In this document: positions 8,127-46,211 of the stretch, piece after piece
Layout of the letters: each line of letters begins with the position of its first letter
Numbering within the stretch: the stretch's first letter is position 1
DNA from: Treponema primitia ZAS-2
Lineage (GTDB): Bacteria; Spirochaetota; Spirochaetia; Treponematales; Breznakiellaceae
Length of the DNA stretch: 64,000 nt
NCBI RefSeq assembly: GCF_000214375.1
Contig: NC_015578.1
Location: 3,534,001 to 3,598,000, forward strand
Direction: 5' to 3'
Made by a program: the position numbers and the translations under genes
The notes under the pieces: model-generated
Told to the model about the DNA's origin: nothing
Seen by the model: only the letters and a program-made list of their open reading frames with translations
The model's database searches: none

Positions 8127-8432
8127 ATGAACAAGGTTCGGCACACACGGACTTATAGACTATGGTTTTCCAATTTGGGTGACTTAAAAGCTCGAAGTCG
8201 TATTGATATGCGGATTAAACAACTTGCTTTGGGTAATCCAGGAGATGTTAAACCAGTTGGCGAAGGGATTTCTGAAATACGTATCGACTATGGGCCTGGG
8301 TATCGGATTTATTACAAAGATATAGGGAATGAAATTGTGGTATTGCTCTGTGGAGGTAATAAATCCACCCAAACAGAGGATATTATAAATGCAAAGAAAA
8401 TTGTAAAGGAATTGGAAGATGGAAGTAACTGA
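8127..8432 (+). CDS. RelE/HigB-type toxin (phage-derived Gp49-like addiction module killer)
   Basis: A 101-residue basic protein. The central segment GISEIRIDYGPGYRIYYKDIG and the following VVLLCGGNKSTQTEDI are the hallmark of the addiction module killer family (TIGR02683-like), RelE-fold ribosome-dependent or free mRNases. The order toxin then antitoxin is normal for this family. It overlaps the antitoxin gene by 14 bases. The promoter places the mRNA 5' end at the start codon. The toxin is presumably held inactive by the downstream partner, which usually also represses the promoter. Confidence 0.85.
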   Translation: MNKVRHTRTYRLWFSNLGDLKARSRIDMRIKQLALGNPGDVKPVGEGISEIRIDYGPGYRIYYKDIGNEIVVLLCGGNKSTQTEDIINAKKIVKELEDGSN

Positions 8433-8706
8433 TTGGGACATGGCGGATCATATCAACTCCAAAGAGGAAGTAATCGCTTATCTTGAGGCAGCCCTTGAGG
8501 AAAACGATATGGAGCTTCTTTTATCGACCCTTGGCGATATTGCACGGTCTAAGGGTATGACGCAGATCGCCAATGATCTAAACCTTTCCAGAGAAAGCTT
8601 ATATCGTTCCCTATCCCCTGACGGGAATCCATCATTCAGTACGGTCATGAAAGTTTTGAACACTTTGGGTTTCCATCTTTCCTTGAAACAAAAAGCAACA
8701 GCCTAA
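8419..8706 (+). CDS. antitoxin of the addiction module (HTH, TIGR02684-like)
   Basis: A 95-residue protein of the antidote family that pairs with Gp49-like killers. The N-terminal part MEVTDWDMADHINSKEEVIA is typical. Residues of about 43-80 form a Cro/C1-type helix-turn-helix (KGMTQIANDLNLSRESLYRSLS). It should bind and neutralise the toxin and repress the operon. ATG 8419 lies inside the toxin gene and has GGAATTGGAAG upstream, so translation is coupled. Confidence 0.87.
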   Translation: MEVTDWDMADHINSKEEVIAYLEAALEENDMELLLSTLGDIARSKGMTQIANDLNLSRESLYRSLSPDGNPSFSTVMKVLNTLGFHLSLKQKATA

Positions 8707-8815: not shown

Positions 8816-8985
8816 TGGAGGTGAGGGGAATTGCCTTCGGCCGGTGATCCGTAGCATCCCCCAACGGCCCTACGCATTCGCTTGGGCCTTATGAGGGGCC
8901 GGTCAGGGGTTCAATTCCCCTACGGAGTGAGGTTTTTAAGAACTTTTTCAGGTAATAATGATTGTTTTAAGTTAAAAAAAAGTTC
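8816..8985. repeat. tRNA-Ala tail module 1 (170 bp)
   Basis: Begins with an 18-base direct copy of the 3' end of the downstream tRNA-Ala gene (8816-8833, tRNA positions 9144-9161). A structured middle follows, with stem GGCCC/GGGCC around TACGCATTCGCTT. Next comes a 21-base inverted copy of the tRNA T-arm at 8901-8921, then an AT-rich tail shared almost exactly with module 2. No open reading frame of note is present. Confidence 0.8.
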
Positions 8986-9143
8986 TGGAGGTGAGGGGCT
9001 TTCGGTCCGGGGGACCCTCCGTCGGCCTTACGCATTCGCTTAGGCCTTTGGGAGGGCTGGTCAGGGGTTCAATTCCCCTACGGGTTGAGGTTTTTAAGAA
9101 CTTTTTCAGGTAATAATGATTGTTTTAAGTTAAAAAAAAGTTC
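8986..9143. repeat. tRNA-Ala tail module 2 (158 bp)
   Basis: Same architecture as module 1: a 13-base direct copy of the tRNA 3' end at 8986, a middle with stem GGCCT/AGGCC around the same 13-base loop TACGCATTCGCTT, an inverted T-arm copy at 9059-9079, and a long shared tail ending in AAAAAAAAGTTC. That tail runs straight into the 3' end of the real tRNA gene at 9144. Confidence 0.8.
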
Positions 9144-9217
9144 TGGAGGTGAGGGGAATTGAACCCCTGACCTCGTGAATGCCATTCAGGCGCTCTAGCC
9201 AACTGAGCTACACCCCC
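9144..9217 (-). tRNA. tRNA-Ala (GGC anticodon)
   Basis: A 74-nt cloverleaf read by hand. Acceptor GGGGGTG pairs with CACCTCC and includes the G3-U70 wobble, the main alanine identity element. D-stem GCTC/GAGC, anticodon loop ATGGCAT (anticodon GGC), T-arm AGGGG-TTCAATT-CCCCT, discriminator A73. CCA is not encoded. The anticodon stem has one C-C mismatch at 28-42, which is odd. The upstream promoter is on the same strand. Its 3' end is duplicated twice downstream. Confidence 0.92.
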
Positions 9218-9231
9218 AGAAGAGTTTTTAG

Positions 9232-45770: not shown

Positions 45771-45849
45771 CAAGGCTTTCGCCTTGACCGTATTGAAAGG
45801 CGCTCCGGTTCGACTCCACATAGGGTCGGTAAAGTAGCATTATTTTATT
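45771..45849. repeat. 79-bp direct repeat, copy 1 (tRNA-Gly tail module)
   Basis: Identical to 46048-46126. Contains the hairpin CAAGGC-TTTC-GCCTTG, the 11-base inverted T-arm copy GGTTCGACTCC at 45807-45817, and an AT-rich tail GTAGCATTATTTTATT. It begins 12 bases after the MATE gene. Confidence 0.9.
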
Positions 45850-46047
45850 CATGTTGAGGGGTATTAAACCCCGAATACAAATACCTTATGAGAACAACAT
45901 ACCTCGTCCCTTTAGGGCGAGGTTGTTGATTGGCATGCTAAATCTAGCGGACGACGGGAGTCGCCTTACGGAGTCCGGCCTCCTGCCGTCCTCCTCCAGG
46001 CCGCCTACGCGCCCCGCCGCACGTCCTGTGCGGCGCACTACTTTTCA
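45850..46047. other. structured spacer in the tRNA-Gly tail region
   Basis: No gene. It contains hairpin-forming sequences: GGGG-TATTAAA-CCCC near 45858, ACCTCG/CGAGGT around 45901-45922, and GCCGCAC-GTCCT-GTGCGGC near 46016-46034. At 45929-45963 lies a 35-base direct copy of the tRNA-Gly 3' end and its downstream flank (tRNA copy 46124-46158). Confidence 0.75.
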
Positions 46048-46126
46048 CAAGGCTTTCGCCTTGACCGTATTGAAAGGCGCTCCGGTTCGACTCCACATAG
46101 GGTCGGTAAAGTAGCATTATTTTATT
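46048..46126. repeat. 79-bp direct repeat, copy 2 (tRNA-Gly tail module)
   Basis: Identical to copy 1 at 45771-45849, 277 bases apart. Its inverted T-arm copy is at 46084-46094. It runs directly into the flank and 3' end of the functional tRNA-Gly gene. Confidence 0.9.
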
Positions 46127-46140
46127 GGCATGCTAAATCT

Positions 46141-46211
46141 AGCGGACGACGGGAGTCGAACCCGCGTCACAAGCTTGGGAAGCTTGGATAATACCGTTAT
46201 ATGACGTCCGC
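46141..46211 (-). tRNA. tRNA-Gly (CCC anticodon)
   Basis: A 71-nt cloverleaf read by hand. Acceptor GCGGACG pairs with CGTCCGC, anticodon stem CAAGC/GCTTG around TTCCCAA (anticodon CCC), T-arm GCGGG-TTCGACT-CCCGT with one G-U pair, discriminator T73. CCA is not encoded. Its 3' end and flank are duplicated about 195 bases downstream. It should read GGG codons. Confidence 0.92.

Follow-up and report, generated by a model that had tools for sequence, protein, structure and literature searches.

A 64,000-nt stretch of the Treponema primitia ZAS-2 genome (contig NC_015578.1, positions 3,534,001 to 3,598,000 of the forward strand; hereafter the window) carries two modules directly 3′ of a tRNA-Ala(GGC) gene. 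An earlier note on this DNA described a hairpin that they share. Beyond that description, this hairpin forms a single arm of a more extensive, multi-branched folded insert, which has no open reading frame (ORF) and is placed in the T-loop of the tRNA gene. Our confidence is evenly balanced on the reading that each module is a copy of a mobile element that is non-coding and site-specific, recognized as a folded single strand and moved by a recombinase acting in trans. The features at the tRNA-Ala locus are as follows.

8816–8833, plus strand: left flank of module 1 (M1), an 18-nt antisense direct repeat of the tRNA-Ala 3′ end (C56 to N73); TGGAGGTGAGGGGAATTG, identical to 9144–9161 in the intact gene
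8834–8900, plus strand: folded core of M1, short form; RNA fold, and a match of the long-form covariance model R2 at 8824–8922 (E 3.8e-4)
8866–8888, plus strand: hairpin of M1, GGCCC (8866–8870), loop TACGCATTCGCTT (8871–8883), GGGCC (8884–8888); covariance model R1 match (E 6e-9) and covariation in relatives
8901–8921, plus strand: inverted copy of the host tRNA-Ala T-arm in M1, 21 nt; 100% inverted repeat of 9152–9172
8986–8998, plus strand: left flank of module 2 (M2), formed by part of a direct repeat of the tRNA-Ala 3′ end; TGGAGGTGAGGGG
8999–9058, plus strand: core of M2; tandem repeat of M1, and fold
9024–9046, plus strand: hairpin of M2, GGCCT (9024–9028), loop TACGCATTCGCTT (9029–9041), AGGCC (9042–9046); R1 match (E 8.4e-8), outer stem 9015–9020/9051–9056
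9059–9079, plus strand: inverted copy of the host T-arm in M2; inverted repeat
9144–9217, minus strand (9143–9218 by ARAGORN): tRNA-Ala(GGC), intact target gene; Rfam tRNA (62.7 bits) and ARAGORN; T55/C56 junction at 9161/9162

A covarying hairpin in tandem modules

M1 and M2 are tandem repeats at a spacing of 158 bp and are 89% identical over 151 nt. Direct reading confirmed the 13-nt loop common to both and the stem described around it, in which the closing C-G pair of M1 is replaced by T-A in M2 with pairing intact; the outer stem suggested for M2 (CCCTCC/GGAGGG) is also present. The claim that these two copies alone reveal a selected structure did not exceed chance, because such short hairpins are common (98 perfect hairpins with a 5-bp stem and a 13-nt loop in the window) and the whole modules fold only about one standard deviation better than shuffles (z of −1.10 and −1.04 for M1 and M2, respectively). 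With copies from relatives added, the covariation went far beyond chance.

Covariance models were used for the searches since the loop pattern by itself is uninformative. In the 4.06-Mb genome, two further modules (M3 and M4) were found immediately 3′ of ssrA; their stems are GGCCC/GGGCC and GGTCC/GGACC, respectively, and M4 has a perfect 15-bp stem. The 27-nt model R1 matched exactly M1–M4 in this genome and, among relatives, further copies that often form tandem arrays adjoining tRNA or transfer-messenger RNA (tmRNA) genes. Among 22 distinct hairpins from relatives (alignment A5, made to the model), covariation of the stems around the loop is complete, with double changes at each of the seven stem pairs (44 cells versus 16 in shuffled data); the covariation value was 0.559 versus 0.149 shuffled (0/500), and shifting the partner by one column destroyed the pairing. 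The loop TACGCNNNNGCTT is retained by this hairpin subset, while other family members have unrelated loops; the resemblance of its Y-A-x-A to a tmRNA tag was for that reason taken as coincidence.

The folded element

The element core is about 100–150 nt. In the long form, a closing stem is followed by a first branch (CCT...AGG with an inner hairpin) and then by an outer stem, CTTTTTTGC/GCAAAAAAG or GGGTTCAGCC/GGGCTGAACCC, around two hairpins, the second of which is the one first noticed in the modules. In a MAFFT alignment of 26 units (A6), 37 of 55 pairs show double changes (252 cells versus 76 shuffled), and RNAalifold alone predicted essentially the same fold (30 of 41 pairs with double changes). 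The closing stem was a search criterion for these 26 units, so its covariation is not independent, while that of the inner helices is. Alignment A7, of 107 distinct covariance-model hits aligned to the model, agrees (1,438 cells versus 447 shuffled). A selected structure is therefore strongly supported.

The window modules share with the long form the repeats, the inverted T-arm copy and the hairpin loop, and M1 also the exact junction; they are a short form of the element. For the core, no Rfam family scored above its gathering score, matches being limited to tRNA, tmRNA and signal recognition particle RNA neighbours, and no description of the family was found in the literature searched, of which coverage was partial. 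Weak Rfam tmRNA matches of M1, M2 and M4 stem from the copied T-arm, and a tmRNA-like reading of these modules was rejected. A second unit, of the long form, lies at the only other tRNA gene of the window.

45773–45849, plus strand: right end of an older unit, duplicated at the tRNA-Gly locus; sequence shared with the unit that ends at 46098 (its right end and spacer)
45929–45963, plus strand: left flank of the tRNA-Gly unit, a direct repeat of 35 bp that takes in the tRNA-Gly 3′ end; identical to 46124–46158
45954–46098, plus strand: second family unit, long form, at tRNA-Gly(CCC); R2 50.3 bits (E 1.5e-15), inverted copy TTCGACTCC at 46086–46094
46141–46211, minus strand: tRNA-Gly(CCC), target of the second unit; ARAGORN and Rfam

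A different short repeat, GAGGGGTATTAAACCCC...CCTCGTCCCTTTAGGGCGAGGTTGTTGAT, occupies 45850–45928, separating the tRNA-Gly unit from the old right end, and a similar one lies between tRNA-His and tRNA-Arg at locus L172.

Insertion at T55/C56 of the T-loop

The junction is located between T55 and C56 of the T-loop in a fixed orientation, and its sequences, read directly, are C-R-A-N-N-C-C with variable flanks. A direct repeat of at least 18 bp extends from C56 up to or past the tRNA 3′ end; therefore, the tRNA gene stays whole. Among 65 loci, the repeat mostly ends at the tRNA 3′ end or a few bases past it, with a tail to 40 bp and more, part of which consists of tandem arrays; about ten of the 65 are eroded or shorter cases. 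Repeat lengths range from 18 to about 60 bp, and some take in the local terminator. There is no conserved second end, one junction only being defined. The units thus combine the fixed position and the repeats of the gene's 3′ end that mark site-specific elements of the tRNA T-loop. The tRNA is separated from the element by an AT-rich spacer (65%), which is terminator-like in 28 of 68 cases, versus 8.7 when shuffled.

A stem that follows the target

The outermost closing strand is an inverted copy of positions 56–64 (9 nt) of the host T-arm. For 100 of 108 distinct covariance-model units, an annotated tRNA or tmRNA gene lies immediately downstream, antisense, and the 9-mer is exactly the host's own T-arm in 80 of these 100 and matches it at 8 or more of 9 positions in 91 (exact matches when shuffled: mean 2.8, maximum 9). 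The pairing of the stem is partly built in, as the model rewards pairing and the training units were chosen for it; a match to the neighbouring intact tRNA gene was required by no search step. Hosts are of some 17 kinds and include tmRNA and the tRNAs for His, Arg, Thr, Gly, Ser, Ala, Trp, Asn, Met, Cys, Gln, Val, Pro, Tyr, Leu and Glu. At tRNA-His loci identified through simple DNA similarity the T-arm copy is present too, in one of them with a single mismatch. Where no tRNA was annotated, a tRNA-like direct repeat was nearby in four of the five units examined. ARAGORN missed some tRNA-like genes.

Such a fixed segment of 8–9 nt abutting the junction and matching the target is one argument for RNA-guided insertion, in which the unit would be transcribed into a guide RNA with a defined structure, perhaps forming the 3′ trailer of its own tRNA. 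Its 9-nt T-arm segment would pair with the target and so choose the site, while a protein supplied in trans performs the insertion beside the paired segment. Divergence of the segment is also twice that of the core, as a reprogrammable guide would show, and size and fold resemble those of IS110 bridge RNAs, which are non-coding structures of 150–250 nt with short target-matching segments (PMC11208160). We nevertheless judge this mechanism unlikely. The partner protein was not found; IS110 elements encode their own recombinase, while the units have no DEDD recombinase gene and no room for one; and the entire T-arm rather than 9 nt is copied in M1, M2 and loci L080 and L343. Compared with IS110 bridge RNA, the units have a stem strand instead of two loop guides as target segment, and long direct repeats.

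Distribution and mobility

Units were found in 129 of 195 family genomes and in 71 of 392 genomes sampled across Spirochaetota. The genome of the window harbours 18 long forms (E at most 1.1e-4) plus M1–M4. The model detected no units in four same-genus relatives, all of them drafts, as most of the relatives are. Within one genus (39 genomes), the gap between tRNA-His and tRNA-Arg is filled in some genomes and empty in others, and same-genus tRNA-Ala loci are empty. Cores at different tRNA genes in different genera are 85–91% identical; for example, the core at tRNA-Arg in the window's genome is close to that at tRNA-Tyr in genome G199. Of 94 locus pairs whose cores share at least 80% identity, 90 differ in the 9-mer, and the 9-mer differs at 31% of sites as against 14.5% for the core. 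Near-identical cores at different tRNAs in different genera imply that the elements move and retarget; their mobility and site-specificity are well supported. As to vehicles, plasmids had no match, the phage matches listed were tRNA genes, and one pattern scan of viral contigs was empty.

The same observations weigh on the proposal of a regulatory RNA or terminator that is fixed to tRNA genes, was duplicated with them and is not mobile now. It would fit the terminator-like spacers and the strong RNA-like covariation, yet filled and empty loci coexist within one genus, tRNA-Ala loci of the same genus are empty, and near-identical cores occur at different isotypes and genera. We disfavour it as very improbable.

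At L348 (2171213–2171286 in the window's genome), a long-form unit is cut short by what resembles the start of a transposase gene, IS256-like by eye. At L167, an insertion of about 300 bp with terminal inverted repeats TCAGAAACATATG/CATATGTTTCTGA lies between the element and tRNA-Arg.

A possible mechanism

Integron attC sites and their gene cassettes conserve structure over variable sequence, have a stem closed by a strand of the neighbouring DNA and occur as tandem units. By analogy, the element would be recognized as a folded single strand by a site-specific recombinase in trans, and the tRNA T-arm would serve as the chromosomal site of recombination. The T-arm-matching stem would rebuild a double-stranded half of the target and set the position of strand exchange, and insertion would supply a replacement tRNA 3′ end and terminator. 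Tandem amplification at single loci and movement between tRNA genes and genera are both evident among the units. This attC-like model is favoured because T-loop insertion with 20-bp repeats of the 3′ end is an established habit of integrases (PMC3146451, PMC1762012), because a circle with a single recombination site would be expected to give one defined junction and no second conserved end, and because terminators are often supplied by the spacer. The suggestion in the earlier note of a folded RNA or a single-stranded DNA recombination site stands as a pair of alternatives: the surroundings favour a mobile site-specific insert, and RNA and single-stranded DNA are indistinguishable here.

Like attC sites, the units conserve a folded structure over sequence. 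Unlike them, they carry no GTTRRRY/RYYYAAC boxes at the directly read junctions, have a multi-branched fold, target tRNA genes, and have neither cassette genes nor an adjoining integron integrase.

Several results count against a trans-acting recombinase of this kind. No recombinase with an adjoining unit was found, and no unit lay beside the integrases examined. Integron-integrase-like proteins occur in 186 of the 195 genomes, the stronger matches being weakly associated with units (P value=0.019, from hand-transcribed counts). The 4-kb scans of the loci contained no cargo-bearing or autonomous forms. Cassette exchange alone leaves unexplained why the repeat and the inverted copy change jointly on retargeting, and long repeats of 35–42 bp, which extend over the local trailer or terminator, resemble a target-site duplication. 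Furthermore, the same hairpin occurs in dispersed non-tRNA copies in genomes G008, G094 and G133; tRNA targeting is therefore not universal for this hairpin.

An integron integrase was above cut-off in 5 of the 195 genomes, and an integrase encoded by the element itself is excluded by cores of 83–133 nt, which leave no room for such a gene. Widespread tyrosine recombinases with a length of about 400 aa (L206–L230; 2031585–2032385 in the window's genome) match the integron-integrase model in two parts, at about 120 bits and thus below cut-off. In G008, about 21 hairpin matches with loop TACGCACCTGCTT are dispersed (L030–L041); of the matches read, none is at a tRNA, and the inverted repeat on their flanks, GTGCGGTTTA/TAAACCGCAC, follows no target. 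In G094, G133 and G116 (L086, L087 and L091–L093), the same hairpin, CGCCC-TACGC....GCTT-GGGCG and similar, has another setting, which is non-tRNA and partly tandem, in GC-rich repeats.

A further explanation is target copying, in which the element would enter a staggered break in the T-loop and gain its inverted 9-mer by copying the flank during insertion (snap-back, target-primed synthesis), so that the 9-mer tracks the target automatically. One precise junction plus one variable end, direct repeats varying from 18 to about 60 bp that in places include the local terminator, and close cores that bear the 9-mer of the new target at different tRNAs all agree with it. On the other side, the copy usually has a set end, position 64, where a variable one might be expected, reverse transcriptases (PF00078) are unassociated with units (38 of 129 versus 21 of 66; P value=0.74), and PF00078 was not found in the window's own complete genome. 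Target copying appears improbable, and for the last two reasons retrotransposition driven by a reverse transcriptase was rejected.

The units may also constitute a new class of tRNA-seeking, self-addressing nucleic acid that is mobile in spirochaetes: a protein-less element whose folded strand bears a programmable 9-nt address, read as RNA or single-stranded DNA against T-arms, rewritten or selected at each move, and moved by some enzyme. We advance this tentatively and consider it possible but doubtful.

Comparison with known elements

T-loop insertion with 20-bp tmRNA repeats and tandem copies downstream of ssrA is known from the ssrA islands of Dehalococcoides (PMC3146451), and in mycobacteriophage Ms6 a changed attP core redirects insertion among tRNA-Ala T-loops (PMC1762012). 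The units resemble such integrative elements directed to tRNA or tmRNA (class II T-loop sites) in the T-loop site, in the ~20-bp 3′-end repeats and in leaving the gene whole (PMC3146451, PMC1762012). They differ in having a structured core of 100–150 nt without integrase or cargo, in being one family on about 17 kinds of tRNA and tmRNA, and in an inverted T-arm copy that tracks the host. Casposons and Cas1-type integration also involve insertion at tRNA 3′ ends with target duplication (PMC6977970), with duplications of 14–15 bp, terminal inverted repeats and an encoded Cas1, whereas repeats of the units are mostly at least 18 bp and there are no terminal repeats and no gene. Finally, the units are small, non-coding, palindromic and multicopy like miniature inverted-repeat transposable elements (MITEs) and repetitive extragenic palindromic (REP) elements, from which they are distinguished by the single fixed tRNA T-loop site and a terminal stem that is target rather than element sequence; a related autonomous transposon with the same ends, which a MITE would be expected to have, was not found among the loci read.

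If these readings are correct, the units would make up a family of tRNA-seeking elements that spans the phylum, is absent from Rfam, is undescribed in the papers searched and has an address segment that tracks its target. The enzyme that moves ORF-less elements, the re-specification of the target, and the ability of a compact folded strand to direct integration into any tRNA gene would become testable. As tRNA 3′ ends are common integration sites of genomic islands, a small programmable T-loop inserter could become a tool.

Directly left of M1, at 8127–8706, lies a type II toxin-antitoxin pair, consisting of a RelE/ParE-family toxin (TIGR02683) and its antidote (TIGR02684).
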